The notes beneath the pieces are model-generated. The model saw only the letters and a list, made by a program, of their open reading frames with translations, ran no database searches and was not told where the DNA came from. Below, one piece after another: positions 23,403 through 45,613 of a DNA stretch of 64,000 nucleotides. The stretch is from positions 1,426,001 to 1,490,000 of the forward strand of contig NZ_CP159307.1 in NCBI RefSeq assembly GCF_040448695.1, given 5' to 3'. Position 1 is the first letter of the stretch. Each line of letters begins with the position of its first letter. Both the position numbers and the translations under genes were made by a program. The stretch is from Dehalogenimonas sp. 4OHTPN. Its GTDB lineage: Bacteria; Chloroflexota; Dehalococcoidia; Dehalococcoidales; Dehalococcoidaceae.

Positions 23403-23437
23403 CACTTTTATAACACCTTTCCTTGATAGGAGAGAAA

Positions 23438-25234
23438 ATGGTCATCGATATAATCAAAGAAACCAAGCCGGCGCTCACTCCCAACGCCCTCAGGGTGTTG
23501 GAGAAGCGCTACCTCCGCCGCAACCGCCGGGGCGAGCTTATAGAGACGCCGGAAGAGATGTTCCGCCGCGTCGCTCAGGCCGTAGCCGCAGCTGAACTCA
23601 TCTACGACCCCCTGGCTGATACTGACATCATGGCCGGCGAGTTCTACCGGCTGATGACCTCGCTTGAATTCCTGCCCAACTCCCCCACCCTCCTTAACGC
23701 CGGCACCGCAGTGGGGCAATTATCATCCTGTTTCGTCTTGCCGGTGCCCGATTCCATCGAAGAGACCTTCGACGCGATGAAGTACACCGCCCTGATCCAC
23801 AAGAGTGGCGGCGGTATCGGCTTCGATGTCTCCAAAGTCAGGCCCAGAGGCGCCGCGGTGGGCGAGCACCTGGATGCCGCCGGCGGCCCGGTGGCTCTGA
23901 TCCACGTCATCGCCGGCGCGGCTGATTATATCCGCCAGGGCGGCGTGCGGCGCGGCTGCAACTCGGTGGTCATGAGCGTTTCCCATCCGGATATCCTCCA
24001 TTTTATTAAAGCCAAGTCAGATCCCAACGTCCTGACCAACTTCTACAACTCCGTCTCGGTCAGCGATGATTTCATGACCCGGGTGAGATCCGGGTCGGAT
24101 TATGCACTTATAGATCCCAACACCGGGGAAGAGACCGGACGGCTCAATGCCCGGTCGGTATTTGCCCGCATCGTCGACCAGGCCTGGCGCACCGGCGACC
24201 CTGGTCTCGTCTTCACCGACCGGGTCAACCGCGACAACCCCACCCCCACTCTCGGCCGGATGGAGACGGTCACCGGCTGCGGCGAGCAGGCATTACTGCC
24301 CTACGAGTCCTGCAACCTCGGCTCCATCAACTTGGCAAAGATGCTTAGGCAGACCGAAACTGGACTTGAAATCGATTATGAGAAGATCGCCCGAGTAGTG
24401 CCGTTAGCCGTCCGCTTCCTCGATAACGTCATCGACGTCAATAAGTTCCCGGTGGCCGTAATCGAAGCGGCGACCAAACGCACCCGGAAGATCGGCCTGG
24501 GGGTCATGGGCTTTGCCGACATGCTCATCCGCCTGGGGATCCCCTACAACTCCACCAAGGCCATCTCGGTCGCCGAAGAGGTCATGGAGTTTATCAACGA
24601 TAAGGCTCATGAAGCCTCCCTTGAATTGGCACTTGCCCGCGGTGCCTTCCCCGCCTGGAAGGGCAGCGTCTATGAGCAGCGCGGCTTACCCATGCGCAAC
24701 GCCTGCTGCACCACTATCGCCCCCACCGGCACGCTGTCCATCATTGCCGGGGTGTCCTCAGGGATAGAGCCGATCTTCGCCACCGTGTTTATTAGAAACA
24801 TCCTCGACGGCGAGAACCTCCTTGAGGTCAATCCGTACTTCGAGGAAGTCGCTCGAGAGCGGGGCTTCTTCACCCCAGCGCTTATCGAGCAGCTGGTCAC
24901 CTCCAACCACCTTCAAGACCGGAAAGATGTCCCGGAGGATGTCAGGAAGGTCTTCGTCACCGCCCACCGGGTGTCGCCGCAGTGGCACGTCCGAATCCAG
25001 GCCGCCTTCCAGAGACACACCGACAATGCTGTGAGTAAGACGGTCAATTTCCCCCACGCCGCCGCCCGAAGCGATATCGCTGGCGTCTTCATGATGGCCT
25101 ACGAGCAGGGCCTCAAGGGCATCACCGTTTACCGCGATGAAAGCCGGGAACTGCAGCCCCTGTGCACCAGCGAGACCGGATTGGAATTGGTGAAAGTATT
25201 ATTCCATGAATCCCATAAGGAGGAACGCATATGA
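23438..25234 (+). CDS. NrdJ-like (class II ribonucleotide reductase-like) protein 1
   Basis: A 598-residue relative of adenosylcobalamin-dependent ribonucleotide reductase, starting at MVIDIIKETK after AGGAGAG. The barrel core is recognisable: LPNSPTLLNAGT, HKSGGGIGFD, NFYNSVSVSDDFM, TRKIGLGVMGFADML and TIAPTGTLSIIAG. The thiyl-radical cysteine and glutamate are kept (Cys281 and Glu283 in TGCGEQ), as are the two reducing cysteines (Cys98 in SSCF and Cys292 in ESCNLG). The catalytic Asn of the family's NPCGE motif is Thr279 here. The end lacks the usual C-terminal CxxC shuttle. It overlaps the DUF2795-like gene and lies between rdhA genes. It may be a reductase variant or a different B12 radical enzyme. 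Confidence 0.85.
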   Translation: MVIDIIKETKPALTPNALRVLEKRYLRRNRRGELIETPEEMFRRVAQAVAAAELIYDPLADTDIMAGEFYRLMTSLEFLPNSPTLLNAGTAVGQLSSCFVLPVPDSIEETFDAMKYTALIHKSGGGIGFDVSKVRPRGAAVGEHLDAAGGPVALIHVIAGAADYIRQGGVRRGCNSVVMSVSHPDILHFIKAKSDPNVLTNFYNSVSVSDDFMTRVRSGSDYALIDPNTGEETGRLNARSVFARIVDQAWRTGDPGLVFTDRVNRDNPTPTLGRMETVTGCGEQALLPYESCNLGSINLAKMLRQTETGLEIDYEKIARVVPLAVRFLDNVIDVNKFPVAVIEAATKRTRKIGLGVMGFADMLIRLGIPYNSTKAISVAEEVMEFINDKAHEASLELALARGAFPAWKGSVYEQRGLPMRNACCTTIAPTGTLSIIAGVSSGIEPIFATVFIRNILDGENLLEVNPYFEEVARERGFFTPALIEQLVTSNHLQDRKDVPEDVRKVFVTAHRVSPQWHVRIQAAFQRHTDNAVSKTVNFPHAAARSDIAGVFMMAYEQGLKGITVYRDESRELQPLCTSETGLELVKVLFHESHKEERI

Positions 25235-29088: not shown

Positions 29089-29122
29089 ATCGAGAAGGAG
29101 GAGCGGTCTCCTCCTTCTCGAT
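29089..29122 (+). terminator. Perfect 14 bp hairpin between rdhB and the radical SAM genes
   Basis: 29089-29102 and 29109-29122 are exact inverted repeats with a 6-base loop. No T-run follows, so it may partly stop transcription or protect the upstream rdhAB mRNA, lowering expression of the downstream genes relative to the dehalogenase. Confidence 0.65.
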
Positions 29123-29159
29123 CCCGGTTCACGCAACAGTCGCGCATAGAGGGAATAAA

Positions 29160-30307: not shown

Positions 30308-30475
30308 ATGATGATTCTGCTCTGGATACTATGCATCGCCTCGATTATCGGCTCGGCATTATACCTGGTGCTGGAACGCCAGGTTGCCGTCTATAACCGC
30401 GCCGTGCCGCCCTGGCCTGATGCCTGCCCACCCATTGAACCCTACCTGGAAGGCAGTTTCGGACGCCGGTCATGA
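30308..30475 (+). CDS. 55-residue predicted membrane protein
   Basis: One strong hydrophobic helix (MMILLWILCIASIIGSALYL) and a polar tail. ATG 30308 has GGGAGGGG ahead. It overlaps the following radical SAM gene by 4 bases (ATGA). No family is recognised; position between two radical SAM genes suggests a tethering or partner role. Confidence 0.6.
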   Translation: MMILLWILCIASIIGSALYLVLERQVAVYNRAVPPWPDACPPIEPYLEGSFGRRS

Positions 30476-31341
30476 AGACCTGCATCTACCATATCACCTA
30501 TACGCCGGAGCAGAAGGATGTCTGCGTCCATTTCTGGGGCTGCAATTTCCAGTGCCGCGGCTGTTACTGCTCTACCCAAATCTACAGCCCAATGCTGGAC
30601 TTCGGCGCCATGCTCAAGCGCAAACCCGAAGTCCTTGCCCGCCCGCCGGAAAATTTCCTGACGCTGGCCGGAGTCGAGGCTATCCTGGATAAGCTCGATT
30701 TCCACTCGGTGGTTATCGAAGGCCAGGAAGCCGGCCTGGACCCGGCGTACCCGGCGTTTACCGAAATCCTGCACCGCCGCTACGGCGCCACGGTGACCTT
30801 GGTCACCAACGCCGCGATGCTGCCCGACCTCACCTTCACCGATACCGTTGAGGTCGGCCTTAAGGCGCTGGATGACCGGCTGCACCTGGACTACACTGGG
30901 GTTTCCAACCGCCCCGTTCTCGAGAACTTCGACCGCTTGATTGCCATGGGCAAAAAAATAGTCGTGGATACGGTGCTCATCCCGGGCTATATCGACGCCG
31001 CCGAGGCCGAGCGTGTCGCCGAATTCGTCGCCTCCCGTGATTCAACCATCCCTTTCATCCTCCTGCCCTACTTCCCGGTCGGTAACAACCCGTGGCGCCG
31101 GGCTTCCGCCGCAGAAATGGACGAGGCCGCTGGCTTGGTCAAGAAACATCTCCGCCGCGTTTTTCACTTCCGCGGCGATGAAGCCCTCAAATACCCTATC
31201 TTCAACGTCTTCCCGGCCGAGGCCTGCTCCGGCACCGACCCCGATTCAGCCAGATATCTGGCTGCCGCCGAGGGCTTAAATCGCCGTCCGGGCCGGATCT
31301 TGCATCAAATACTAGAACCCGAGGAGGTATCCGCTCAATGA
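30472..31341 (+). CDS. Radical SAM enzyme (second of a related trio)
   Basis: 289 residues with WGCNFQCRGCYC (Cx3Cx2C) near the N-terminus and VVIEGQEAGLDPAYPAFTEI further on. It lacks the N-terminal domain of the protein at 29160 but is otherwise its homologue (shared NNPWRR/DNPWRR, and KHLxxVFxFRGxEALKYPIF-like end). It overlaps both neighbours by 4 bases, so translation is coupled across three genes. Confidence 0.87.
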   Translation: MKTCIYHITYTPEQKDVCVHFWGCNFQCRGCYCSTQIYSPMLDFGAMLKRKPEVLARPPENFLTLAGVEAILDKLDFHSVVIEGQEAGLDPAYPAFTEILHRRYGATVTLVTNAAMLPDLTFTDTVEVGLKALDDRLHLDYTGVSNRPVLENFDRLIAMGKKIVVDTVLIPGYIDAAEAERVAEFVASRDSTIPFILLPYFPVGNNPWRRASAAEMDEAAGLVKKHLRRVFHFRGDEALKYPIFNVFPAEACSGTDPDSARYLAAAEGLNRRPGRILHQILEPEEVSAQ

Positions 31342-32825
31342 GAGTCCTGCTGGTGACATCACCCAATCCCAACTATTCCGCCTATTACGCCAAGGCTTAT
31401 ACCAACCTGCCCAAAGGCTTGCTCTACCTCGCTTCTTACCTTGAGCAATTGGGTCACGAGGTCAAGGTCTATGACGGCTTCGTTGACGAACGCAAGCCGG
31501 AAGATTTCCTGGATTTCAATCCGCAGCTAATCGGCTTTTCGGTCATCACCGGCCCCAACCTGGAAGGGGCGATTCTCCAGTCTAAGCAGTTTCGGGCTTT
31601 GTTCCCGGCGGTGCCAATCGTCTGGGGCAACGTCCATACCAGCGTCCTGCCGAAACAGACCCTGTCCGAGCCGTATATCGACTACGTCGTCATCGGCGCC
31701 GGCGAATACACTTTGGCCGAACTGATCGATTACCTGGAAAAGGGCGACCGGAAACTCAACGACATCAAAGGCCTCGGCTTCAAGATCGACGGCCAGATGG
31801 TCCTCAACGATCCCCGCCCGTTCATTAAGGATTTGGAAGCGCTACCGGACCCGGCTTGGCACCTGGTGCCGGTGAAGAAATACTCCATGATCGGCATCAA
31901 CACCTCCCGCGGCTGTGTCCACCGCTGCGCCTTCTGCTACAACAAGGCCTACAACAAGGGTTACATCGGCTACCTCTCCGCTGAACGGATCATCTCCCAG
32001 ATCGAATTCCTGCGCCAGCACTACGAGGCCAAATATATCCGCTTCGACGAGGACAACTTCACCTTCAACCGCAAGAGATTACGCGAGTTCTGCAACCTCC
32101 TCATCGAGCGTAAGATTAAGATCTCCTGGAACTGCGACTCCAGAGCCGACCTCTCAGATGCCGATGTCACTCTGATGGCCAAAGCCGGCTGCGTTGCCGT
32201 CGGCCTGGGGCTGGAGTCAGGCAGCCAGCGCGGCCTGGACTTCATGCAGAAGGATATTACCGTACCGGAGATGGAGCGGACTTTCTGGTCGCTGGTCAAG
32301 CACAAGATCCGCACCTCGGTCTACATCATCTACGGCTACCCCACCGAAACCGTTGAGGACTTCAACGCCACTCATGAAATGCTGAAACGGCTGGACAATC
32401 CTTACTACATGTACAACCGCTTCGTCCCCTTCCCCGGCAGCGCCCTCTACGATTACTGCGTGGCACAAGGCATGGTGACGCCGCCGGCCCGCCTCGACGA
32501 CTGGCCGGAATTCCTCATCGAGTATGCTAATAAAATCAACCTGAGCCACGTGCCCACCGAAATGATGACCGAGGCCGCGGCCAACTGGCGCGCCAACTAC
32601 GCCGCCCAGCGCATCAGGTTCACCCTGAAGCACAACCCCGAATATTTCCTGACCCTTTTCAAGAACCCACTCAAATTCCTGCGGGAGGTCGGGGAACTGA
32701 TCAAGTTCCACGGCCAGGTGAACAAGTTCTACAAAACCGTGCAGCGGACACTATCCGGCTTCTCATCGAGCAGTCAGGATTCCGGTCTGCCGCTCGGCAT
32801 CGCGCCCAAACCGAAGGTGATTTAA
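31338..32825 (+). CDS. B12-binding-domain radical SAM protein
   Basis: A 495-residue protein. Its N-terminal part has a Rossmann-type cobalamin-binding domain (LPKGLLYLASYLEQLGHEV, DFNPQLIGFSVITGPNLEGA). Radical SAM cysteines are in SRGCVHRCAFC, followed by RFDEDNFTFN and GLESGSQRGLDFM. This plan is that of BchE/class B methyltransferase-like enzymes, which often methylate or cyclise unactivated carbons. The last gene of the coupled rdhA-rdhB-radical SAM set. Substrate unknown. Confidence 0.9.
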   Translation: MRVLLVTSPNPNYSAYYAKAYTNLPKGLLYLASYLEQLGHEVKVYDGFVDERKPEDFLDFNPQLIGFSVITGPNLEGAILQSKQFRALFPAVPIVWGNVHTSVLPKQTLSEPYIDYVVIGAGEYTLAELIDYLEKGDRKLNDIKGLGFKIDGQMVLNDPRPFIKDLEALPDPAWHLVPVKKYSMIGINTSRGCVHRCAFCYNKAYNKGYIGYLSAERIISQIEFLRQHYEAKYIRFDEDNFTFNRKRLREFCNLLIERKIKISWNCDSRADLSDADVTLMAKAGCVAVGLGLESGSQRGLDFMQKDITVPEMERTFWSLVKHKIRTSVYIIYGYPTETVEDFNATHEMLKRLDNPYYMYNRFVPFPGSALYDYCVAQGMVTPPARLDDWPEFLIEYANKINLSHVPTEMMTEAAANWRANYAAQRIRFTLKHNPEYFLTLFKNPLKFLREVGELIKFHGQVNKFYKTVQRTLSGFSSSSQDSGLPLGIAPKPKVI

Positions 32826-34387: not shown

Positions 34388-34411
34388 GGTACTAGTTTGC
34401 TCTGAAAATGA

Positions 34412-34440
34412 GACCGAGGGGCTTCATCAGCCCCTCGTCC
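34412..34440 (+). terminator. Intrinsic terminator of the GGGGCTTCATCAGCCCC type
   Basis: GACCGAGGGGCTTCATCAGC with its complement and TCCTTTTT after it. It lies between convergent genes. No tmRNA-tail core follows here, unlike the other copies. Confidence 0.85.
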
Positions 34441-34456
34441 TTTTTAGCGGTCTTGG

Positions 34457-34744
34457 TTAACTAGCAGCAGGTTTGGTCGGTAACAATCGCCAGGTCAGCC
34501 CGGCAAAAAGAAGCGCGAAGAACACGACGAAGGCGAAGCCAATCCATCCGCCGCGCTCGGCTCCCTCACCGATCTGTGAACCCAACCAGGCAAATGCGGT
34601 AACCCAGAGTAAGCCACTGGCGACAGCCATAAGCCAGTGCCACCATGCAAATGGCCTTCCGGTTGCCCTTGATACGTTAGCTAGCGAGTATAGAGCGATG
34701 CCCATCAAACCACCAGCCACGATAGAAAACAGGAATGTAATCAT
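34457..34744 (-). CDS. rdhB: RdhB membrane anchor
   Basis: 95 residues with three hydrophobic helices (about 2-23, 36-56 and 64-85). It begins one base after the stop of the rdhA at 34745-36316. Length, topology and coupling are those of a standard RdhB, which anchors RdhA to the outer face of the membrane. Confidence 0.93.
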   Translation of the reverse strand: MITFLFSIVAGGLMGIALYSLANVSRATGRPFAWWHWLMAVASGLLWVTAFAWLGSQIGEGAERGGWIGFAFVVFFALLFAGLTWRLLPTKPAAS

Positions 34745-36316
34745 TTATTTTACCCCCATCGGCGTTGGTGTAAATCCGGAGATAAAGTTCGCGGTCTTCA
34801 GGTATTCGGGCGGATCGAAAACGCCTTTGAACAGAGGCGGATTGAGGTCGTCGAGCATGTTCTTTGGATACATATTGCGTTCTGCCCAAAGAGCGACATT
34901 GGAAACCAAACCGGTAGAGTCTCGCGCAAGGATGTTGCGCATCATTCGATGTGACCATGTGTTTCGACGGGTCCATGGACATGCTGCTACACAAGCACGA
35001 CAACCGGTTGGCCCAGCGCCATAAGCCCAACCATCATTACAAACTGCAAAGTCCGTTGCATATCTCTTCATTCCATATTCAACTCTATCTGGTTCCGGCG
35101 AATAGGAGATCGCTTGGGTCGGACAATTTTCAGCACAGATCATACAACGTTTGCAGAAAGCATATAGATTGAAATCTATCGGCTTGTCTGTTGCCATCGG
35201 AAGAGAGGTGAAGACCACCGCAGGGCGGCAATTGCCTCCCACATCCGGAGACATACAGTTCGAGGTTCTACCAATGCTACCGTATCCAGCTAGCGCACCA
35301 TGTGGAGGTATAGTTAGATCATATCCACCGTTGGGTGAGTTCCATCGAGCTGGATACCCCAGGGCTTTCAGGTAACCCACGATTTGCTGGGCGATAGTTG
35401 ATACTATGTTGTAACCTTGGTTGGACTGGCCGTAGTTTGGATCAGCCATCATCGAATCCCATTCCATCGGAGCATTGACGAAGATGCCGTAGTTCCACCA
35501 CGGCTGAATCTTAATCTCCTCGCCAACTGCGAATCCACGCGTGGCCGATTGATGGTTATACCACACGAATTCTGGATGAACCGGTATGATCCCAACATAT
35601 TGAGCCCCGAAATGGTAGGCAGCCCATTTGATATTTTCGGCCGCCTTCTCAGGTGATTCGAAAACAGCTCGAGTTGTGCTGACACCCTGCCAGTCAAAAG
35701 TCTCTGGTTTCGTGGTTATGGAGGAAGGCGCAAGAGCCGAATCCCCGGAAACAATCTTGTTAGCAATATACCCCTCTTGAGCGTTAAAATTATCCCGCAT
35801 CTCGGTAGTCTTGAAGTAACGCTCTCGAAAACCGGGGAGCCAGTCATATATATATTTCTTGTCACGCTCGAGCATATCTGGATACATTTCGTAGTATTCA
35901 CGCCAGAATGGCGCAAGAGATTGGACTCCATTCGATGGCCAAGCGCTGTATGGGATAGCAAAATCGAATTTATTTACATCTGGGTCGTGGCGGTTCTTGA
36001 ATCTGGAGTTATAGATCCACCTCAGGTCAGGGCGATGAATCCCGTTAACAACCTGATTTGGTCGCATATAGGTCGTATTCTGCGCGGTGACTTTCCAGCT
36101 TGTCTCCGGTACTTCATCTACTTCGAAAGGTGTACGATCGAATACTTCGTATTCAAAGCCGCGCCGATTTTGATGCCCCGGAAAACTCAAGGGGCTCGTA
36201 CCATCTTGCATACCCCAGGCATACGCTACTCCCGCTGCGGCGGCAGTGCCGCCGACACCGAACATCACAGACTTCATAAAATCGCGTCGACTTATTGAGT
36301 TATGGAATTGAGCCAA
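34745..36316 (-). CDS. rdhA: Reductive dehalogenase catalytic subunit RdhA
   Basis: A 523-residue RdhA, the longest here, with Tat signal (ISRRDFMKSVMFGVGG) and cluster motifs FCKRCMICAENCP and TGCRACVAACPW. The start is TTG with AGGAG 8 bp before. It is paired with a full rdhB and preceded by fmdB on the same strand. It is divergent from the other rdhA genes in the window (e.g. WCRACVAACP-type second motif with Pro-Trp, and the FQ-like central region differs). Confidence 0.95.
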   Translation of the reverse strand: MAQFHNSISRRDFMKSVMFGVGGTAAAAGVAYAWGMQDGTSPLSFPGHQNRRGFEYEVFDRTPFEVDEVPETSWKVTAQNTTYMRPNQVVNGIHRPDLRWIYNSRFKNRHDPDVNKFDFAIPYSAWPSNGVQSLAPFWREYYEMYPDMLERDKKYIYDWLPGFRERYFKTTEMRDNFNAQEGYIANKIVSGDSALAPSSITTKPETFDWQGVSTTRAVFESPEKAAENIKWAAYHFGAQYVGIIPVHPEFVWYNHQSATRGFAVGEEIKIQPWWNYGIFVNAPMEWDSMMADPNYGQSNQGYNIVSTIAQQIVGYLKALGYPARWNSPNGGYDLTIPPHGALAGYGSIGRTSNCMSPDVGGNCRPAVVFTSLPMATDKPIDFNLYAFCKRCMICAENCPTQAISYSPEPDRVEYGMKRYATDFAVCNDGWAYGAGPTGCRACVAACPWTRRNTWSHRMMRNILARDSTGLVSNVALWAERNMYPKNMLDDLNPPLFKGVFDPPEYLKTANFISGFTPTPMGVK

Positions 36317-36409
36317 TGTATTGTTCTCCTTTCAGATCCCACAGAGATTCCATCGGACTGTATTTCAACACTTATTCTAAATCAGCACCTCCTTCAACCG
36401 AGGCGTTCC

Positions 36410-36808
36410 CTATGATTCTAGTGCTGCGCCCTCTCCACTTATCTGCCGGGACATTTCCAGTTCTCCCATATACCTCATAGGTGCGTCTGGTTCTTTACCA
36501 AATTTGCTCTGTACTTCCTTGGCAAACGCCTTTTCCGCCGCTCTTTCCTGTTTAACTTTATTCAACCAATTCGTAGGATCCAGCAGCGGGTCCTCATCCA
36601 TACGCTTATCGGTTTTATACCTGGCTTCTTCCTGCCGTTCCTGCATGTGCTGGTAATGGGTTGTGGCATGGCGGAACGAAAAACGGGACATTACCCTTTG
36701 ACCATCTAGACCGCATCGTTCACATGAGACGTTTGGCTGGCCAGTCAACGGGCTCAGGCGCTCAAATGTATGATTGCAGTTCGGGCAAAAGAATTCATAA
36801 ATAGGCAA
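36410..36808 (-). CDS. FmdB-family zinc-ribbon protein
   Basis: 132 residues. The N-terminus has the FmdB zinc ribbon (MPIYEFFCPNCNHTFE and CERCG), and the rest is a charged helical stretch. FmdB-like proteins are small putative regulators. It lies 93 bp before the rdhA start on the same strand behind a good promoter, so it may belong to the same transcript as this rdhAB pair. A separate promoter in the 93 bp gap is not excluded. Confidence 0.88.
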   Translation of the reverse strand: MPIYEFFCPNCNHTFERLSPLTGQPNVSCERCGLDGQRVMSRFSFRHATTHYQHMQERQEEARYKTDKRMDEDPLLDPTNWLNKVKQERAAEKAFAKEVQSKFGKEPDAPMRYMGELEMSRQISGEGAALES

Positions 36809-36848
36809 GGCACAACTCCCTCAATGATTGTTAATAATTGTTACCTAA

Positions 36849-36876
36849 ATTGTACCATGCGTTTATTGAAAGTCAA
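36849..36876 (-). promoter_or_regulatory. Sigma70-type promoter for fmdB-rdhA-rdhB
   Basis: On the minus strand, TTGACT (36871-36876) and TACAAT (36849-36854) are separated by 16 bp, about 40 bp before the fmdB start. Confidence 0.6.
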
Positions 36877-36982
36877 TACGTATAATGGCGTATTTATGGA
36901 CATACTGGGATTAATACATCTGATATAGTCTATTATGTCCCATTCTCATATTACTTGAAGGTTGCTTTCTGGTAATTGATGG

Positions 36983-37011
36983 TTGTATTTGTTAACCGCT
37001 TGTGCTAGTAT
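36983..37011 (+). promoter_or_regulatory. Probable promoter of the cobalamin operon
   Basis: TTGTAT at 36983 and TAGTAT at 37006 with 17 bp spacing, placed just ahead of the riboswitch. Match to consensus is moderate. Confidence 0.4.
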
Positions 37012-37033
37012 TCGAACCACTTAACAATTGAAT

Positions 37034-37160
37034 ACCGGGGCACAGTCCTTAAAAAGACCAAAAGGAGAGAAAGCCGGTCAGATTCCGGCGCAGTACCGCC
37101 TACTGTGTGTGGGGAATCCCACGAGCCAGCAAAGCGCCAGGCCCCGTTGCCTACCTCCAG
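37034..37160 (+). ncRNA. Cobalamin riboswitch
   Basis: The sequence shows the expected series: AAAGGAGAGAAAGCCGGT, ATTCCGGCGCAGTACCGCC, TACTGTG, then the B12-box region GAGCCAGCAAAGCGCCAGGC. It lies 68 bp before the radical SAM gene. This class senses adenosylcobalamin or related corrinoids and represses the following operon when they are abundant. Confidence 0.92.
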
Positions 37161-37227
37161 TGGATATTGGAAAGGGATAGCCTAATCATATTAATCGCTG
37201 TCCCTTCCTGATTGAGGGGAAGCGATT

Positions 37228-38016
37228 TTGCAGTACCTTATACCGAACCAAACAACCGTCTATCACATCGCCTACGCCCCTGCCATTGAGAAAGCCTACC
37301 TCTTTCATTGGGGCTGCAACCTCAAGTGCCGCGGCTGCCTATGCCACAAAGAAATCAACTGCATGGCTCTTGAGGAAAACCTCGACGTAGTCCTGCGCGA
37401 CCCAAGATTACCAAAGCCCAAAGACCCGTCGCAGTATCTTGACCTCGAAGAGCTCATGACCACGCTCAGGAAGGTCCCGGTCAAAGAGGCCCTTTTCGAA
37501 GGGCAAGAAGCCTCTATCGACCCGGCTTACGGCGCCATCACCGAGGCGCTGAAGGCTGAATTCGACTGCTACATCACGCTTAATACCAACGGCGTGAAAC
37601 TCCCTGACCTTTCCCATACCGACGAGGTGGTAATGAGCCTCAAGGCGGTGACACCGAAGCTTTATCGCGACTACACCTTGCATTCCAATGAGCGTGTCCT
37701 TCGCCACTTTGTCGAAGTGTTTCGCCTGGGGAAAAAACTTCGAGCAGAAAGCGTCTTTATCCCTGGACTTATTGACCTTGAAGAGACCGAAAAGATAGCC
37801 GCATTTATCGCTGCTGTTGATCCCAATATCCCTTACCGGATAGACGCCTATTTCGAATCTGGGGCTGACAACTCCTGGCGGCGGGCAACACCAGAAGAGA
37901 TGGCGAAGGCTAAGGCTGCAGCCAAAAAGCATCTTGTAAATGTCACCTGCACCCAGCAGACCGCAGCCAAACTCGAAAAGAAAGACCTGATGTATGAAGT
38001 CGTCAGGCTCTACTAA
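37228..38016 (+). CDS. Radical SAM enzyme at the head of the cobalamin operon
   Basis: 262 residues with TTG start and GAGGGGA 8 bp before it. The cluster motif is WGCNLKCRGCLC, with FEGQEASIDPAYGAITEAL and NSWRRATPEEMAKAKAAAKK matching the two radical SAM proteins at 29160 and 30472. It is the first gene after the riboswitch, followed by cbiZ after 10 bp. This places the family in corrinoid metabolism, though the reaction is unknown. Confidence 0.87.
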   Translation: MQYLIPNQTTVYHIAYAPAIEKAYLFHWGCNLKCRGCLCHKEINCMALEENLDVVLRDPRLPKPKDPSQYLDLEELMTTLRKVPVKEALFEGQEASIDPAYGAITEALKAEFDCYITLNTNGVKLPDLSHTDEVVMSLKAVTPKLYRDYTLHSNERVLRHFVEVFRLGKKLRAESVFIPGLIDLEETEKIAAFIAAVDPNIPYRIDAYFESGADNSWRRATPEEMAKAKAAAKKHLVNVTCTQQTAAKLEKKDLMYEVVRLY

Positions 38017-38026
38017 GAGGTCATAA

Positions 38027-38788
38027 ATGCCAGAGCGCTTAAAGCTAGAGCGGAAATCAATCTGTGATTGTCACGGAATAAGTATCGACGTCGTCTATCA
38101 CAACGCCGTCGGCGTACCCACCGACACCCTGGTCATCACTCTGCCAGAAAAGCGACCGATGCTGACCACTAGGCATGGTTACAAGGAGACCGACGTCATC
38201 TGCAACTGCCACGTACCGAAGGAACTCTGGGATTTTATGCATGATGAATCCCGCTGCTGGCAGGAGACTTACGGTCAGATCATGGCTGAAGTCCTGACTG
38301 AAGCTAATCGGTCGATCGAAGACATCGTGTTCTTGTCTACCGGCATCAGGCAGGAGCGAGTGGCCGTGGCCGAAGAAGTGTACGATGAGTTTTGGGTCAT
38401 GGCAGTGACTACCGCGGGTGTCAAGACCAATGCCATGCGGGTGGGCGTCGACAAAGCATCAGGCATTGAGCGCAACGGCAAGTTTGAGAAAATCGGCACC
38501 ATCAACAACATCATTCTCACCAACGCCATCCTCGAAGCTCCGGCGCTGGCCTCGTCATTCATCACCATTACCGAAGCCAAAAATATCGCCCTTCAGGAAC
38601 TCGACATCCGCAGCGCCTACGCCCCGTCGCTGCTGGCCACCGGTACAGGCACCGACCAGATAATCGTGGTATCGGGTCTCGACTACAAGTACACCTACGT
38701 CGGCGGTCACACCAAGCTGGGGGAGATGATGGCTCAGGCGGTTACAAAATCAACTATACAGGCGATACGGAACTCCAGGGGTTTCTGA
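38027..38788 (+). CDS. cbiZ: Adenosylcobinamide amidohydrolase CbiZ
   Basis: 253 residues with the CbiZ pattern (LTTRHGYKETDVICNCHVPK, VMAVTTAGVKTNAMRVG, ATGTGTDQIIVVSG). CbiZ removes the aminopropanol/nucleotide-loop side of imported corrinoids to give adenosylcobyric acid, so that the lower base can be rebuilt. This is key for Dehalococcoidia that cannot make corrinoids and depend on specific lower ligands. It ends 1 base before cbiB. Confidence 0.92.
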   Translation: MPERLKLERKSICDCHGISIDVVYHNAVGVPTDTLVITLPEKRPMLTTRHGYKETDVICNCHVPKELWDFMHDESRCWQETYGQIMAEVLTEANRSIEDIVFLSTGIRQERVAVAEEVYDEFWVMAVTTAGVKTNAMRVGVDKASGIERNGKFEKIGTINNIILTNAILEAPALASSFITITEAKNIALQELDIRSAYAPSLLATGTGTDQIIVVSGLDYKYTYVGGHTKLGEMMAQAVTKSTIQAIRNSRGF

Positions 38789-38789
38789 A

Positions 38790-39722
38790 GTGGACCTTAT
38801 CCTGATCCTGCTGCTGGCGCTGGCGATCGATCTCACCATCGGCGAGTACCCGGTGGCAGTCCACCCAACGGTCTGGGCCGGACGGCTGGCTGGGATGCTT
38901 ATTAAACCCGGATTGAGGCTGCGACGTAATCTCCAATTTGTCTACGGGACGATCTTGAGCCTCTCGCTTATCACCCTGTTCTCAGCCTCAGCCTGGCTTA
39001 TCCTCGACTTTTTGAAAGGAATCGATTACTGGCTTTTCATTATTGGTGGGGCAGTCATCCTGAAACCTGCCTTCTGCCTGTCCCAGCAGTGGCGGGTAGC
39101 TCAGATTACCCGGGCGGTGATTGAATCTAAAGCGCCGGTGCCTTCCGGAATGAAAAGCCTTTTCGAAACGGTAAGCTTTAATCAGTCTGTTACCCGGGGT
39201 GAGGTCACGTCAGCAAGTATTCGCTCCATCGCCGAGAACGCGTCGGATTTTGTGACTGGACCGCTTTTCTATTACCTGTTCCTGGGCGTTCCAGGGGCGG
39301 TCGCCTATCGTGTTCTAAACACCCTGGATAATATGATCGGTTACCGTGGCAAGTTCGAATATTTGGGCAAGTTTGCCGCGAGGCTTGATGACGCTGCCAG
39401 TTTCATCCCGGCCAGGATTACTGCCTTGTTGCTCATATCCTCCGCCGCTTTCAAACAGTGGGATGTCGCTAGAGCCTGGCGGACAATGATAACCGATCAC
39501 GGCCTGACGCCAGGACCCAATGGCGGCTGGCCGATGGCTGCGGCTGCTGGAGCTCTGGGGGTCAAATTATATAAAACCGGGCATTACGAGCTAGGTAGTT
39601 CATTCGTTGAGCCACCAATCGACAAGATCACCGAAGCTGTCAGCCTATACCGTTTAAGCATGTTCACTTGGATCGGCGTCTGTCTGATGGCGCTGGCAGT
39701 AGCTGCCGCATTGCGAGGATGA
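38790..39722 (+). CDS. cbiB: Cobinamide-phosphate synthase CbiB/CobD
   Basis: 310 residues, GTG start. A membrane protein with the family's N-terminal DLTIGEYPVAVHPTVWAGRL and later RGEVTSASIRSIAENASDFVTGP and NTLDNMIGYR. It attaches the aminopropanol linker to adenosylcobyric acid, the step after CbiZ in remodelling. It is directly coupled to both neighbours. Confidence 0.94.
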   Translation: MDLILILLLALAIDLTIGEYPVAVHPTVWAGRLAGMLIKPGLRLRRNLQFVYGTILSLSLITLFSASAWLILDFLKGIDYWLFIIGGAVILKPAFCLSQQWRVAQITRAVIESKAPVPSGMKSLFETVSFNQSVTRGEVTSASIRSIAENASDFVTGPLFYYLFLGVPGAVAYRVLNTLDNMIGYRGKFEYLGKFAARLDDAASFIPARITALLLISSAAFKQWDVARAWRTMITDHGLTPGPNGGWPMAAAAGALGVKLYKTGHYELGSSFVEPPIDKITEAVSLYRLSMFTWIGVCLMALAVAAALRG

Positions 39723-39723
39723 A

Positions 39724-40245
39724 ATGATAACTAAGGGCATGGTCCAGGTATTCACCGGCGAAGGCCGCGGCAAAACATCGGCCGCCCTTGGCACGGCAAT
39801 ACGTGCAGCCGGTTATGGGTTGAAAGTATTCGTTCTCTTCTTTATGAAGGGCATACATCCAGGGGGTGAATATTCCTCGTTCCAAACATTAGGTGTTGAT
39901 TTCAAAGTCTTCGGCCGGCCGGATTTCTACGGGCCGTCAGATATCAGGGATGAAGACCTGAAACTGGGCAGAGAAGCCTTGAAAGCTTCTGTCGACGCTA
40001 TAACTGGCGGCCGGTATGATCTGGTGGTGCTTGACGAAATCAATACGGCGGCTGCCTGGAACCTCATTGAAACGGCTGATGTCCTGAAATTAATCGATAG
40101 TAAACCGCCAGGCGTTGAACTGATCCTGACTGGCCGTTATGCCTCTCAGCTAATTATTGACAAGGCTGATTATGCCACCGAACTGGTGAGCACGAAGCAC
40201 CCCTTCGACCGTGGCGCGCCTGCGCGGGAAGGAATCGATTACTAG
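39724..40245 (+). CDS. cobO: Corrinoid adenosyltransferase (CobO/BtuR type)
   Basis: 173 residues with the P-loop GEGRGKTSAALGTAIRAAGY and YDLVVLDEINTAA, as in CobA/CobO/BtuR. It transfers the adenosyl group of ATP to cob(I)alamin or other corrinoids. Adenosylated forms are needed by CbiZ/CbiB and by the NrdJ-like protein of the same operon. The next gene overlaps by one base. Confidence 0.94.
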   Translation: MITKGMVQVFTGEGRGKTSAALGTAIRAAGYGLKVFVLFFMKGIHPGGEYSSFQTLGVDFKVFGRPDFYGPSDIRDEDLKLGREALKASVDAITGGRYDLVVLDEINTAAAWNLIETADVLKLIDSKPPGVELILTGRYASQLIIDKADYATELVSTKHPFDRGAPAREGIDY

Positions 40246-41015
40246 TGAAAGTCGCCTTTTTCCATATCGAGCCGAAACCAGGCCAGATCGAGGCCAACCG
40301 CCACTTGTATGAGCGGCTGATCTCAGCAAGTGCCGTACTGGGGACGCGCTGGATACTTACTCCCGAGCTCGGTATCTCAGGGTATTACTTCACCGATATC
40401 ATCGGCACCAACTGGATCAAACCCCAGCCTGATGAATGGATGAACAAAATCAAGCTCGAAAGCCGCAGGCTTGATCTAACCATCTTCTTATCTCACCCTG
40501 AGCGGGACAAGAAAACCGGCAAGTTCCACAACACTTTATTCGCGATCGATAAAGGCAGAATCGCTGGCCGTCACCGCAAGATAGAGGTCCATCCGGGCGC
40601 CGAAGAAGCCTGGTCCTCTCCCGGTGATAGCCTGAAACCCTTCGCTATCGACGGTGCAAGAATCGGGATGCTGATCTGTGCTGATACCTGGGACACTCAC
40701 CACGGACTTGAACTCCAAAAAAAGGCTGCTGAGCTACTGGTCGTCAGTGCTGCCTGGGGTCAGAAATACCCGCCGCTGGAAAACTGGAAAACCCTGTCGC
40801 TATCTACCGGACTACCGGTATGGGTCTGCAACAGAACAGGCCAGGAACGTAATGTCGACTGGACTCAGGCTGAAAGCATGGTCCTGGCGAAAGGCCAGCC
40901 GGTGCTCAGATACTCCGGCAAGCCGGCGTTGCTGGTCTTCGACTGGGATTTCGAAAGGATGTCGCCTGTATCAGCCGAGTTTACCGTCATACCCGTTGAT
41001 GGAAGGGAGATCTGA
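40245..41015 (+). CDS. Carbon-nitrogen hydrolase (nitrilase superfamily)
   Basis: 256 residues with the Glu-Lys-Cys triad of the nitrilase superfamily: Glu in LTPELGISGY, Lys in GRHRKIEVHPG and Cys in MLICADTWD. These enzymes hydrolyse amides or nitriles, or transfer acyl groups. Within a riboswitch-controlled corrinoid operon, an amide side chain of a corrinoid or a product of the NrdJ-like/radical SAM pair is a possible substrate; this is inference. GTG start overlaps cobO; ends 2 bases before the NrdJ-like gene. Confidence 0.88.
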   Translation: MKVAFFHIEPKPGQIEANRHLYERLISASAVLGTRWILTPELGISGYYFTDIIGTNWIKPQPDEWMNKIKLESRRLDLTIFLSHPERDKKTGKFHNTLFAIDKGRIAGRHRKIEVHPGAEEAWSSPGDSLKPFAIDGARIGMLICADTWDTHHGLELQKKAAELLVVSAAWGQKYPPLENWKTLSLSTGLPVWVCNRTGQERNVDWTQAESMVLAKGQPVLRYSGKPALLVFDWDFERMSPVSAEFTVIPVDGREI

Positions 41016-41017
41016 CC

Positions 41018-42796
41018 ATGGTCATCGATACCAGATCAATGCCCATCTATTTAGACAAACCGGCTCTAACACCCAATGCTAAACTGGTCTTGGAAAAGCG
41101 CTACCTGCGCCGGGATGAAAATGGTGAAATTATTGAAACACCAGACGAGATGTTTTGGCAGGTAGCCCGGGCAGCAGCTTCTGTCGAACAACACTACGAC
41201 CCTCAGGCAGATATTGAGACTGTTGCATCTGAATTCTACGAAATCATGGCGGGACTGCTCTTCCTGCCCAATTCGCCTGCCCTTTTAAACGCCGGTACCG
41301 GTCGAGGGCAAATGGCTGGCTCGATGGTGCTGCCGGTCGAAGACTCGCTGGATTCCATTTTCGATGCCGTAAAAAATGCCGCCATTATCCACCAGCGTGG
41401 TAGCGGGATCGGTTTCGACTTCTCGAGCATCCGACCCAGAGGTGACCGGGCAGGCAGTCGGCCTGATGCCGCCATCGGACCAGTAGCCTTGATCGAGGTA
41501 TTTTCCAGGGTGACCCAGAATATCCGCCAGGGCGGTATCCGCCGCGGCTGCAATGCCGTCTCGTTGGGCATCGACCACCCGGATATTATTGAATTCATCA
41601 GGGCCAAAGCTGACCAGTCATCCTTAAGCAACTTCTATACCTGCATTGCCATCACTGATGATTTCATGCAAAGAGTGAAGCAAGGATTGGATTATCCCTT
41701 GATCCATCCCCGTACCCAGAGCGTTAGCAGGTGGCTGAATGCTAGAGAGGTGTTCGACCAGATCGTCGACCAGGCCTGGCGTAATGGTGAGCCGGGCTTT
41801 ATCTTCCTCGACCGGATCAACCGTGACAACCCCACCCCACAACTAGGGACTCTTCATCATGTCAGCGGCTGTGGTGAACAGCCGCTACTACCCAACGAAT
41901 TTGCCCACCTCGGCTCCGTCAACCTTTCCCGAATCGTGAAATCTGATGGGGATCAAACATATATCGACTTCAAACTGCTGGCCAGTGTCGTCGGCACAGC
42001 GGTGAGGTTTCTGGATAATCTCATTGATTTAACAGGCTATCCGACGAATGAGAGCATGCTCGCTACCAAACGGACCCGGAAGATCGGCCTCGGGGTGATG
42101 GGCTTTGCCGATATGCTGTTCCAATTGGAGATCGCCTACAACTCCGAACAGGCGCTCGATATAGCAAGAGAGGTGATGAGCTTCATCCAGCGGCAGGCGC
42201 TTGATGCCTCTATCGAGCTTGGCCAGAAGCGGGGGCCATACCCGGCTTTCCATGGTGGCGGGAAACCAATCCGTAACGCCTCGCGTACTACCATTGCACC
42301 AACTGGCACCATATCGCTGATAGCTGGTTGCACTTCGAGCATCGAACCGGTTTTCGCTACTGTCTTTATCAGGAACGCTTTCAAAGGTGAACACCAGATG
42401 CTGGATATCAATCCCCATTTCGAAAAGGCGGCGCGCCAGGCTGGGGTCTTTACTTCAGACCTCATCGAGCGCCTTGTCAGGTGTAACCACCTGCAACAGC
42501 AACCGGATGTACCTGAGGAATTGAAACGCATCTTCGTCACGGCTCACCGGGTCAGCCCCGAGTGGCATATCAAAATGCAGGCGGCTTTCCAGGAGTTTAC
42601 TGATGCTGCCGTCTCTAAAACAGTCAACTTGCCTCATAATGCTGATAGAGAAGAACTTGGTATTATCTTCATGCAAGCATATGATATTGGGCTCAAGGGT
42701 ATTACAGCCTACCGTGACCAGAGCCGGTCATCTCAGCCCTTCTGCACTGGCGATATCGGCATTAGTCTGGTCCGGGAATATATGAATTGTAGGTAA
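41018..42796 (+). CDS. NrdJ-like protein 2, lacking reductive cysteines
   Basis: 592 residues, homologous along its length to the NrdJ-like protein at 23438 (ALTPNAKLVLEKRYLRRDEN, RGSGIGFDFSSIRPRG, RKIGLGVMGFADMLF, RTTIAPTGTISLIAG). The thiyl-radical Cys285 and Glu287 are kept (SGCGEQ). The catalytic Asn is Ser283. Both cysteines of the reducing pair are gone: SSCF is GSM(V) at Ser102, and ESCN is EFAH at Ala296. No C-terminal shuttle cysteines are seen. It therefore can hardly reduce ribonucleotides by the known mechanism but may still make a B12-dependent thiyl radical. Last gene of the riboswitch operon. Confidence 0.85.
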   Translation: MVIDTRSMPIYLDKPALTPNAKLVLEKRYLRRDENGEIIETPDEMFWQVARAAASVEQHYDPQADIETVASEFYEIMAGLLFLPNSPALLNAGTGRGQMAGSMVLPVEDSLDSIFDAVKNAAIIHQRGSGIGFDFSSIRPRGDRAGSRPDAAIGPVALIEVFSRVTQNIRQGGIRRGCNAVSLGIDHPDIIEFIRAKADQSSLSNFYTCIAITDDFMQRVKQGLDYPLIHPRTQSVSRWLNAREVFDQIVDQAWRNGEPGFIFLDRINRDNPTPQLGTLHHVSGCGEQPLLPNEFAHLGSVNLSRIVKSDGDQTYIDFKLLASVVGTAVRFLDNLIDLTGYPTNESMLATKRTRKIGLGVMGFADMLFQLEIAYNSEQALDIAREVMSFIQRQALDASIELGQKRGPYPAFHGGGKPIRNASRTTIAPTGTISLIAGCTSSIEPVFATVFIRNAFKGEHQMLDINPHFEKAARQAGVFTSDLIERLVRCNHLQQQPDVPEELKRIFVTAHRVSPEWHIKMQAAFQEFTDAAVSKTVNLPHNADREELGIIFMQAYDIGLKGITAYRDQSRSSQPFCTGDIGISLVREYMNCR

Positions 42797-42834
42797 ACGG
42801 GAGAGTTTATGCCCAACCCAAACGTTAGGAGCGA

Positions 42835-42902
42835 AGTTGATTGGTTTAAGTCTCAAAGATCAAAGCCGCGCTTTTAAGATACCTTGTGTTAACCAATCAA
42901 CT
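42835..42902 (+). repeat. 12 bp inverted repeat after the cobalamin operon
   Basis: AGTTGATTGGTT at 42835-42846 is exactly complementary to 42891-42902, with a 44-base spacer. It could form a weak transcript end or be a mobile-element scar. Confidence 0.5.
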
Positions 42903-42910
42903 AAGAGTCG

Positions 42911-42945
42911 CGTTCCAGAGAGAGTCCGACCCGACAAGGATGACT
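42911..42945 (+). repeat. Degenerate tmRNA-tail-like core
   Basis: CGTTCCAGAGAGAGTCCGAC, then CCGACAAGGATGAC resembles the island core (GTTTCAGAGAGAGTCCGACT, CTnCGAGGAGGAC). It marks the left edge of the next AT-rich block. Confidence 0.5.
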
Positions 42946-43756
42946 AAGGTTTTCTTCTTGAGTACTTTATGAAATCAGGTAATGCCATTAAAGCTCGAAA
43001 AAAGCGCTCAGGTCGCTCGGCTGAATAACATTTCCCCGTAATCCTACCCGGCTTCACGCTACACATTTCTAATGCCACTTTTTGTACCCGTTCTATAGGG
43101 GTAGCAAAAGCTTTCAACAGCACCGACATTAGTCCCATTTTGGAATCAGTTTCGGGACAGGTCTTTACATCCTTGTAGATGTCCGTCTCAACCATGCCTG
43201 GAAATAGGCAGTTTATTGATATCGGCTTATCCTTGTTCTCAGCAGCCAGGCTCTTCGTAAGACTTGTAATCGCAGCTTTACTCGCACCGTATGGGGATTG
43301 GAAAGGACTGGGATTCCCACGTCCCCCACGCCCACCTATGTTAATGATCGTTCCTCCCCCACTTGATATGAAGTATGGGATTAATAGCCTGCAGGCATAG
43401 AAAGAACCCATCAAGTTGGTATCAATGACTTCTCTTATCTCGTCGGTGGTCATAGACTGAAGAGTTCGATAGCCGCCAGATATCCCTGCATTATTTATCC
43501 ACACGTCGATTTTCCCGAAGGCTAATTTGCTACTCTCGAACAGCCCTAAAATTTCAGCCTCGTTTGTGACATCTGCTTGGAAAGCCCGAACGGAAAAGCC
43601 GCTTTGGTATAGCTCTTCGACCGTCTTCGAAAGAAGGGTGAAATCTCTTGAACATAGAACTACGTTAGCTCCGGCAGCCGCACAAGCTTCCGCAATTGCA
43701 CGTCCAATACCCCGGCTGGATCCGGTGACGACTACTGTTTTGTCTTTGAGTGTCAT
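42944..43756 (-). CDS. Short-chain dehydrogenase/reductase
   Basis: 270 residues from MTLKDKTVVVTG. NAD(P)-binding TGSSRGIGRA and NNAG motifs and the catalytic YGASK are present. The start at 43756 has AGAGGA upstream; an ORF extension upstream has no such site. It is cargo between two tmRNA-tail-like elements. Substrate is unknown. Confidence 0.9.
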   Translation of the reverse strand: MTLKDKTVVVTGSSRGIGRAIAEACAAAGANVVLCSRDFTLLSKTVEELYQSGFSVRAFQADVTNEAEILGLFESSKLAFGKIDVWINNAGISGGYRTLQSMTTDEIREVIDTNLMGSFYACRLLIPYFISSGGGTIINIGGRGGRGNPSPFQSPYGASKAAITSLTKSLAAENKDKPISINCLFPGMVETDIYKDVKTCPETDSKMGLMSVLLKAFATPIERVQKVALEMCSVKPGRITGKCYSAERPERFFRALMALPDFIKYSRRKP

Positions 43757-43842
43757 TATGATTGAGTCCTCTAATCTAGTGATATTCGGAGTTAACTCTA
43801 TCACAAGCTCTGTTTTTGTATAAGATCCCATGTCAGACCGAA

Positions 43843-43995
43843 ATGAACGAGGGGCTTTTTCAGCCCCTCGTTCATTTCCCGAGAGATCCATTCCAAGATA
43901 TCCATTGTTTCAGAGAGAGACGGACTCTTTGAGGAGGACGAACTGAGATGGCTTAATAACACCCGAGGGACTTTGAATGTCCCTCGGGTGTTTTC
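43843..43995 (+). repeat. Hairpin, tmRNA-tail-like core, second hairpin (unit 7)
   Basis: GAACGAGGGGCTTTTTCAGC and complement form hairpin 1. The core is CATTGTTTCAGAGAGAGACG, GACTCTTTGAGGAGGACGAAC at 43903-43943. Hairpin 2 (CACCCGAGGGAC with GTCCCTCGGGTG, followed by TTTTC) spans 43959-43995. Hairpins 1 and 2 may also serve as terminators. Confidence 0.7.
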
Positions 43996-44017
43996 GCCGG
44001 CTGAGACCAGGTGATTG

Positions 44018-45613
44018 AAAAAAGAGGGACAGGAACAGTGGCTGAAATTGATTTCAACCACTGTTCCTTTTGCATATATCCTACCGATATGCCCCGTGGC
44101 GGGAAAGGACATTAGAGTCCTGTCCATAGAATGGCAACTCGAGATCCCACCATGACTCAGGATCTTTCTGTCCATACTCGAAAGTCTCAGCCATACTGAA
44201 TAGAAAACCGTTAAAAAGGGGAGTGGTAGCTATGGTACTTTTCACTACGTCGTGAATCATAGCGCCATGATTTACCGTAAAAGTGCATTCACCCCAGCAT
44301 ATGTTGCAACTGCTTCCACTTTCAGAAGCCCAGAGACTGCAACCAGGACCGTTCATGATAAAGGCCTTGGTCCCTTGCACGGTCCAAATCGCCGCTTTCC
44401 CATTAACAGTTGGACGTTCCCAAGAAGGCTCTTTTTCGAAAGATATCACTTCAGCAGGGCAGTTATTTGCACATTTCTGGCAGGTATGGCAGAAGCGGAA
44501 AATACCTGCGTCTATTGGTTTGTTTGGCGCCAGCGGCAGATCAGTTACAAAATCATATAAACGGCCAGGAGCACCATATTCAGGGGAAATTGTATAGAGT
44601 TGTTGGCGACTTGCCTCCCCAAGTCCGTTCAATATCGCACCAGCCCCACCAGCGAAGAAATGGGTCGCGTCTTGATTGGGTGTTGCGTTACCAACTACTC
44701 CGATCTTCTGATAGCCTATCATGCGCAGAAAGTTTTGAGTACAAGCGTTGATATTGCCGACATTCATAAAAGTATTGCGATTCGCAAAACCGCCCCAAGC
44801 CGGGGAGCGGCGGAATAATTCATTCGACCCTTGGGTCGAAACACTCACTTCCCACATTTCTTTATTGGGGATGACTAGCTTTGTAGAAGTCTCATAACCT
44901 GTGTCAACATTCTCGTACACGATTGGACGAGCAACACTTTCGGGAGGCGGCCATTTGTCAATGTAGCTGTTGCTGTTAGCTCCGCCTTTCTCGTAGGAAA
45001 ACACAGCCTTGTTTCTGATTTCGCTTGTGAACTCACCATATCCTACTAAAGAGGCGCCATACACCCTCATTGCAGCCCTGAGCATCTTTGAAGCTTCCTC
45101 CGGTGTTCCGGTCCATTTGGGGACACCAAGTTGTTCAGGGGTTTTCGTCGGAGCCAAATTGAATTCACCAGCCCAACCGAAATCACCAGGCTTCCGTTGG
45201 ATTGTATTCGTCGTCGTCGCGCCGGCGTACAATGCATCATCTCGCAAACGATAACCAGATTGGTTGGCATCTTGGCGAGCTTTTTGTAAGGGAGCTCCCA
45301 CCGCATTGGCATTAACCACTCGGTCTTTCCCATAGTATTGAGCCTTTGTGTAACCTGCTTGACCCTGAAGACGGCCGTCATGACGCTTCATCATGTCCCA
45401 GTCAATCTCGATCGTGGGATGATCAAACTCCCTCTCTTTGACATACCATGGCCGTTTCCAGCTTGCGTCAGAAGATCCAATTAACTCGTCCATATCATGG
45501 AATACTGGTGTAACCAAAGAAGCGCCACCGATGCCAGCACCTAAGAGCCCAATGGCTTTCATGAACTCTCTTCTACTTACAACGCTATGAAACCTGGACA
45601 TTGTCTATTCCTC
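44018..45613. repeat. 1.6 kb duplication, right copy
   Basis: Matches 1-1596 at a constant offset, with no difference seen by eye. This copy keeps the full rdhA ribosome site (AAGGAGGAATAGACA) and an upstream region, so it is probably the parent copy. Confidence 0.93.
44081..45601 (-). CDS. rdhA: Reductive dehalogenase catalytic subunit RdhA (right copy)
   Basis: The same 506-residue protein as at 64-1584: Tat signal (VSRREFMKAIGLLGAG) and cluster motifs FCHTCQKCANNCP and GSSCNICWGEC. Here the ribosome site AAGGAGG is intact and a 494 bp gap separates it from the divergent rdhA at 46096. No rdhB is adjacent. Confidence 0.97.
   Translation of the reverse strand: MSRFHSVVSRREFMKAIGLLGAGIGGASLVTPVFHDMDELIGSSDASWKRPWYVKEREFDHPTIEIDWDMMKRHDGRLQGQAGYTKAQYYGKDRVVNANAVGAPLQKARQDANQSGYRLRDDALYAGATTTNTIQRKPGDFGWAGEFNLAPTKTPEQLGVPKWTGTPEEASKMLRAAMRVYGASLVGYGEFTSEIRNKAVFSYEKGGANSNSYIDKWPPPESVARPIVYENVDTGYETSTKLVIPNKEMWEVSVSTQGSNELFRRSPAWGGFANRNTFMNVGNINACTQNFLRMIGYQKIGVVGNATPNQDATHFFAGGAGAILNGLGEASRQQLYTISPEYGAPGRLYDFVTDLPLAPNKPIDAGIFRFCHTCQKCANNCPAEVISFEKEPSWERPTVNGKAAIWTVQGTKAFIMNGPGCSLWASESGSSCNICWGECTFTVNHGAMIHDVVKSTIATTPLFNGFLFSMAETFEYGQKDPESWWDLELPFYGQDSNVLSRHGAYR

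Follow-up and report, generated by a model that had tools for sequence, protein, structure and literature searches.

Short NrdJ-like proteins encoded near B12 and dehalogenase genes in Dehalococcoidales point to an unrecognised radical enzyme family

Introduction

The gene at 41018-42796 of the window (the whole stretch of DNA analysed here, 64,000 nucleotides from Dehalogenimonas sp. 4OHTPN) encodes an NrdJ-like protein that an earlier note, made from the sequence alone, described as having kept the thiyl-radical cysteine of class II ribonucleotide reductases (RNRs) and lost both reducing cysteines. It raises the question of whether such a protein is still a ribonucleotide reductase and, if it is not, what its radical would be used for. 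We know of no class I or class II RNR homologue that has been described with a different catalytic job, and our literature search found no description of the short NrdJ-like family treated below. A comparative genomics study of June 2026 reported an expansion of RNR genes in Dehalogenimonas strain NSZ-14, one of them drawn beside rdhA (PMC13390414); in the accessible part of that study the expanded genes are treated as ordinary RNRs for DNA replication, with residue changes unmentioned.

Results

An intact NrdJ homologue with an altered active site

The open reading frame is intact, encodes 592 amino acids and is homologous to NrdJ from end to end, with profile matches to PF02867 (E = 1.7e-114) and PF00317. 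It scores 595.9 bits against NCBIfam NrdJ_Z (TIGR02504), above the cut-off of 399.95, so that automatic annotation will label it an RNR. The structurally known NrdJ of T. maritima (PDB 1xje/1xjk) aligns with it at an E value of about 1e-93 and places the following features.

41018..42796, + strand: gene of the short NrdJ-like protein, an RNR barrel without the catalytic Asn, the ancestral reducing Cys pair and the C-terminal redox domain
41321..41323, + strand: Ser102 codon, aligned to reducing Cys134 of T. maritima NrdJ
41549..41551, + strand: Cys178 codon, a gained loop-2 cysteine (T. maritima equivalent Ala210)
41642..41644, + strand: Cys209 codon, a gain restricted to the operon clade lacking Cys102; an invariant Ser in normal NrdJ
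41864..41878, + strand: finger loop S-G-C-G-E, residues 283-287 (NPCGE in normal NrdJ)
41870-41872, + strand: radical Cys285 codon, aligned to the T. maritima radical Cys322
41903..41905, + strand: Ala296 codon, aligned to the second reducing Cys (Cys333 in T. maritima)

All the residues named in the earlier note fall where it had placed them: Cys285 is kept, and Ser102 and Ala296 stand at the positions of Cys134 and Cys333, both ancestral reducing cysteines being gone. The catalytic Asn320 of T. maritima NrdJ corresponds to Ser283, and the catalytic Glu of the finger loop is kept as Glu287 (T. maritima Glu324). The seven cysteines of the protein are at positions 178, 209, 285, 438, 489, 576 and 591, none of them near 102 or 296, so we rejected a shift of the reducing cysteines to sites adjoining the old ones, which the earlier note had named as a finding that would tell against it.

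The C-terminal tail is 26 residues long and does not contain the Cys-rich domain of normal NrdJ. In loop 1, the site of the specificity effector, Arg148, Asp150 and Ile153 replace Thr180, Gly182 and Ser185, which are invariant in normal NrdJ, and the effector Asp is kept. An AlphaFold2 model made from 27 sequences (pLDDT 87.7, pTM 0.90) has T. maritima NrdJ as its best fold match (Z about 44, rmsd about 2.1 over about 549 residues); the matched entries include dTTP-, GDP- and AdoCbl-bound structures, a likeness of fold that alone is no proof of function.

A corrinoid operon with a radical SAM gene

The gene is the last of an operon whose members are separated by 0-10 nt and follow the order radical SAM, CbiZ, CbiB, CobO, CN_hydrolase, NrdJ-like.

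37026..37155, + strand: divergent cobalamin riboswitch aptamer (RF00174, 24.2 bits, gathering threshold 31.5, E = 0.0044, full model 1-189)
37228..38016, + strand: radical SAM protein of family c2 (PF04055, E = 1.5e-10; CX3CX2C motif)
38027..38788, + strand: CbiZ, adenosylcobinamide amidohydrolase (PF01955, E = 2.4e-43)
38790..39722, + strand: CbiB, adenosylcobinamide-phosphate synthase (TIGR00380, 206.5 bits, cut-off 165.9; PF03186)
39724..40245, + strand: CobO/BtuR, ATP:corrinoid adenosyltransferase (PF02572, E = 1.4e-53)
40245..41015, + strand: CN_hydrolase (nitrilase/amidase superfamily) protein, substrate unassigned (PF00795, E = 9.9e-18)

The operon had been read in the same way before, with a cobalamin riboswitch at its head. 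While the gene order stands, the riboswitch needs a qualification, its score being below the gathering threshold; yet a full-length RF00174 element stands at the same place before each of the four copies of this operon (4/4), the other three scoring 29.4-30.1 bits, also under 31.5.

The model of the radical SAM protein is of moderate quality (pLDDT 74.6), and its best solved fold is the pyruvate formate-lyase (PFL) activating enzyme (Z 18.7), the next family being NifB (15.6). Searching the PDB by sequence gave no match to this protein up to E = 1, and its NCBIfam matches are mostly glycyl-radical activases, all far below their cut-offs. Genomes of Dehalococcoidales have as many as eight paralogues of this small radical SAM family, and three of them lie in the window (29082-30293, whose N terminus is extended by about 130 residues, 30472-31341 and 37228-38016). 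A B12-binding radical SAM protein resembling the BchE type is encoded at 31338-32825, and its relatives recur beside short NrdJ-like genes. The rdhA-rich part is bordered by an integrase-type transposase pair (17193-18343, IS3-like as judged by sequence), near which the GC content moves from about 44% to 55-59%.

A family of short paralogues in Dehalococcoidales

The genome (1,750,158 bases, one contig) holds eight PF02867 genes. A separate normal NrdJ, which the earlier note had proposed looking for, is among them (914 aa, 556017-558761), with all catalytic residues and a C-terminal tail of 13 cysteines; the other seven, with 589-605 aa, are short paralogues, and the sequence studied here is present twice among them in identical form. 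The two copies belong to an 11.2 kb duplication (window 34411-45613 and genome 1416402-1427596, the latter being L039 1402-12596), which takes in the whole operon and rdhA genes flanking it. They are identical from about 39.6 kb of the window onward and mostly 75-98% identical upstream, with one stretch at 68%, which suggests a recent gene conversion between them. The window contains another short paralogue.

23423..25234, + strand: second short NrdJ-like paralogue of the window, between rdhA genes, with a TGCGEQ finger loop, the loop-2 Cys and both ancestral reducing Cys

A small ORF of the DUF2795 type (25231-25494) follows this gene, and another such ORF is found at 21283-21561.

Genomes of the Dehalococcoidaceae (eight of the same genus and three of the sister genus, all with matches) carry from 1 to 11 short copies of about 595 aa and one normal NrdJ of about 910 aa each. 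Outside this family, short members were found in the same order (G118, G263, G312, G313, G229 and G350, and a fragment in G328). The earlier note had also suggested a search of Dehalococcoidia genomes for the altered finger loop, and this pattern was found in 13 of 294 genomes, all Dehalococcoidales, with zero control hits, for which reason a chance origin was rejected. The loop-2 pattern matched 13 of 301 Chloroflexota genomes, namely twelve Dehalococcoidales and one chance match that is not an RNR (G569); beyond Dehalococcoidales no further RNR gene was matched among these 301 genomes. Exact patterns may overlook divergent members, as the finger-loop pattern missed family f8, which was recovered by synteny alone. 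In the sampled genomes, the short NrdJ paralogue family is confined to Dehalococcoidales.

Two otherwise conserved short genes contain one in-frame stop each (TGA in L047 8859-10637 of G004, TAA in L048 8438-10255 of G001), the former being the sole short copy of its genome. A DPCGGQ subclade (L118 8242-9999, L121, L075, L076 and L077) lacks the catalytic Glu and the second reducing Cys and keeps the radical and loop-2 cysteines; it sits in a long corrinoid operon with several radical SAM genes, a CbiE-like methylase, CbiZ, CobO, CbiB and NifS. As this subclade is also without the Glu, one shared chemistry need not be assumed for all members.

A rebuilt active site

Residues were counted in 45 intact short members and 87 normal NrdJ, the latter comprising 7 from Dehalococcoidales and 80 from other bacteria and archaea that were drawn from a scan of genome contigs. 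The pattern C...NPCGE...C is invariant in normal NrdJ (79/80 outside controls, the remaining one being truncated, and the 7 from Dehalococcoidales), so the pattern of the protein studied here is far from chance. Similarly, NPCXE was reported in 3175 of 3347 class II sequences (PMC9669993).

The radical Cys is kept in all short members (45/45), and the catalytic Asn, present in 87/87 normal NrdJ, in none of them (0/45; Thr 26, Ser 13, Asp 5, Cys 1). The replacement of Asn by Ser283, pointed out in the earlier note, is therefore real, but the loss of Asn is a trait of the whole family and not peculiar to this protein. The catalytic Glu is found in 40/45, the first reducing Cys in 41/45 and the second in 33/45. 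Where T. maritima has Ala210, at the end of loop 2, every short member has Cys (45/45) and every normal NrdJ compared has Ala (86/86). The equivalents of the T. maritima phosphate contacts Ser91 and Arg207 (PMC4728125, Table 4) are kept in 45/45, together with those of loop-2 Gln203 and of Thr491-Gly492, and loop 1 is degenerate at positions that are invariant in normal NrdJ.

The C-terminal redox domain is absent from all the tails measured (42/42), which are 23-39 aa long, against 187-204 aa with 12-14 Cys in the normal NrdJ of Dehalococcoidales; outside controls with tails of at least 60 residues have at least two Cys there (67/67). In the class II NrdJ of Stackebrandtia this domain carries electrons to the active site (PMC5704485). 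Some class II RNRs also lack C-terminal Cys (PMC9669993), so the loss of the tail alone does not exclude RNR activity.

Compared with the T. maritima type (PDB 1XJE/3O0O), the protein shares the whole fold with its PF02867 and PF00317 domains, the radical Cys, the Glu, the phosphate residues and the loop-2 Gln and Arg. It differs in the missing Asn, Cys pair and Cys-rich domain, in the degenerate loop 1, and in the new Cys178 (loop 2) and Cys209 (barrel).

Stepwise loss under purifying selection

With the trait columns left out, a tree made by quick search (SH-aLRT being the only support) has the short family as a single clade (SH-aLRT 98) in which the loop-2 Cys was gained once, the Asn lost once and the Glu lost once. 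The first reducing Cys was also lost once, in the clade of the operon described above, and the second four times in separate clades. The earlier note had taken the pair to be lost together, and this is contradicted by a member of the same clade (G002, at 241711) in which only the first reducing Cys is lost. Cys209 occurs in all four members of this clade and in none of the others (4/4 vs 0/41), and its gain coincides with the loss of Cys102. A relocated dithiol of Cys178 and Cys209 in this clade is possible from the sequences; the coincidence is one tree event and may be due to chance.

The note's statement that the changes do not reflect decay holds. Between the gene and a relative in another genome, where the operon is conserved, protein identity is 69%, pS 0.80 and pN 0.21, and dN/dS in the Cys-losing clades (0.09-0.11) is close to that of other short pairs (0.04-0.10) and of normal NrdJ (0.098).

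Neighbourhoods of short and normal genes

Within three genes of the short members (46 rows, two interrupted loci being counted twice), we found a c2 radical SAM gene in 19/46, rdhA or rdhB in 21/46 and a corrinoid gene in 25/46; at least one of the three was present in 44/46 rows, against 1/7 for normal NrdJ (an rdh gene in 1/7, radical SAM and corrinoid genes in 0/7). In family f8, the order rdhA, rdhB, radical SAM, NrdJ-like is seen in two genomes. In the Dehalococcoidales sample, rdhA is present in 13/14 genomes with a short member and in 12/87 without one, absence of short members being judged by pattern and synteny (Fisher p about 8e-9, which is only indicative as the genomes are related). 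The loop-2 Cys of every short member, Cys209, the missing C-terminal domain, and a family dozens strong that is linked to rdhA and to a radical SAM partner go beyond what the earlier note had described.

Among the other neighbours of short NrdJ-like genes is DUF71, for which a link to B12 salvage and five copies in Dehalococcoides have been described (PMC3541065). These surroundings resemble the DUF71-B12/CbiZ corrinoid-salvage clusters of that study in having CbiZ, CbiB, BtuF and DUF71 (PF01902) as neighbours, whereas the published clusters include no RNR-like member.

Discussion

It is very unlikely that the protein is a working ribonucleotide reductase; a separate normal NrdJ is encoded in the same genome. 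The missing Asn and C-terminal relay speak against normal reduction, as does a dithiol that is either absent or moved, while the invariant radical Cys and the phosphate pocket favour a nucleotide or nucleotide-bearing ligand with a thiyl radical nearby, and the neighbouring genes point to cobamide salvage or dehalogenase maturation as the place of the reaction. We therefore give about an even chance to the view that this is a repurposed class II RNR performing thiyl-radical chemistry other than thioredoxin-fed net 2'-reduction, in the service of one of these two pathways.

The protein keeps the ten-stranded barrel of class II RNR with its radical cysteine and its pocket for the nucleotide phosphate; it has lost the Asn holding the ribose 3'-OH, the domain for electron delivery and the ancestral reducing cysteines, and has gained the cysteine of loop 2. 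Its thiyl radical is most likely still made on Cys285, given the invariance of this residue and the fold, although Cys285 could be kept for some other reason. Dependence on adenosylcobalamin is likely, and the cofactor would probably be supplied by CobO, CbiB and CbiZ encoded next to it. The radical is predicted to act on a nucleotide or a nucleotide-bearing corrinoid intermediate, in a reaction that would not be net 2'-reduction fed by thioredoxin and would help to salvage cobamides or to mature reductive dehalogenases.

The Ser at the first reducing position reminds us of the C225S-type mutants of E. coli class Ia NrdA, which release base and pyrophosphate instead of a deoxynucleotide in a suicidal reaction and have no known stable function. 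Unlike these laboratory mutants, the protein described here is natural and conserved and has further changes. Base and pyrophosphate are eliminated when a 3'-keto intermediate strays from the usual course of the reaction (PMC7321198), and release of both by this protein is a testable prediction rather than a claim.

Four other explanations were weighed, and are given in decreasing order of probability. The protein may be a non-catalytic binder of corrinoid or nucleotide, that is, a sensor, a carrier or a remover of the upper ligand that hands the corrinoid to reductive dehalogenases, with Cys285 aiding the Co-C split without turnover. The cobamide of reductive dehalogenases carries no adenosyl ligand, the genes are linked to rdhA and corrinoid genes, and some clades are without several catalytic residues, including the Glu and those of loop 1, all of which would suit a binder. 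We nevertheless consider it unlikely, because the radical Cys, the phosphate residues and the new active-site Cys are each kept in 45/45, which looks like a constraint on chemistry and not on binding alone.

An RNR that has been retained with relocated thiols, in which the ancestral pair would be replaced by Cys178 (with Cys209 in this clade) or by a reductant from outside, for instance formate or a small dithiol, would account for the presence of Cys178 in every short member and for the exact match between Cys102 loss and Cys209 gain. In addition, one active-site Cys and formate can suffice in class III reductases (PMC9669993). This seems quite unlikely to us, as the Asn contacting the ribose 3'-OH and the domain for electron delivery are gone, the genome has a full normal NrdJ, and dNTP supply would not explain as many as 11 copies per genome in the neighbourhood of rdhA and corrinoid genes.

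The radical might instead come from the PFL-activase-like radical SAM partner, which is a serious candidate for this role. With such an activator acquired, a class II barrel would resemble class III RNR and the glycyl radical enzymes, which have a related barrel and activases of their own. Consistent with this, the radical SAM gene lies directly upstream of the NrdJ-like gene in several families, at a spacing of 0-4 nt, and is present in 11/11 genomes of the order sample with a GCGEQ-type protein, and both the fold of the model and the profile matches, weak as these are, lean toward activases. On the other hand, the protein is class II in sequence and without a glycyl radical domain, and inspection by eye of its C-terminal 26 residues and of the tails of other short members found no glycyl radical motif of the RVxGY type. 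Many members adjoining rdhA have no radical SAM copy beside them, and the cobalamin riboswitch, CobO and CbiB of the operon favour a corrinoid. Generation of the thiyl radical by the partner, and not by AdoCbl, thus appears improbable.

Functionless, decaying NrdJ duplicates, to which two interrupted loci in the genus might point (G001 666489-668222 and G004 1571889-1573625), were rejected as an explanation of the family and have very little probability left, since the gene is intact, 42 copies other than the two interrupted ones are intact, dN/dS is 0.04-0.11, and the family predates the genus and is kept in several families of the order with the same residues invariant throughout.

Returning to the repurposed radical enzyme, we put forward more tentatively, as a possibility less probable than the reading of this single protein, that there is an order-wide RNR-fold family outside DNA precursor synthesis, which would carry out a new radical reaction to supply or load the cobamide of RdhA, with an activase-like radical SAM partner and an active site rebuilt around the radical and loop-2 cysteines. 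Judging from its conserved residues and its position near B12 and dehalogenase genes, the short family points to an unrecognised family of radical enzymes. RNR is usually viewed as a fold with one job, and dozens of natural members that keep the radical site and the nucleotide pocket while shedding the parts needed for reduction step by step would show how its radical chemistry gets redirected. In organohalide-respiring bacteria, genes for a "vitamin B12-dependent RNR" that are counted under DNA replication probably belong to cobamide or dehalogenase metabolism, an unresolved step for the heterologous production of reductive dehalogenases.
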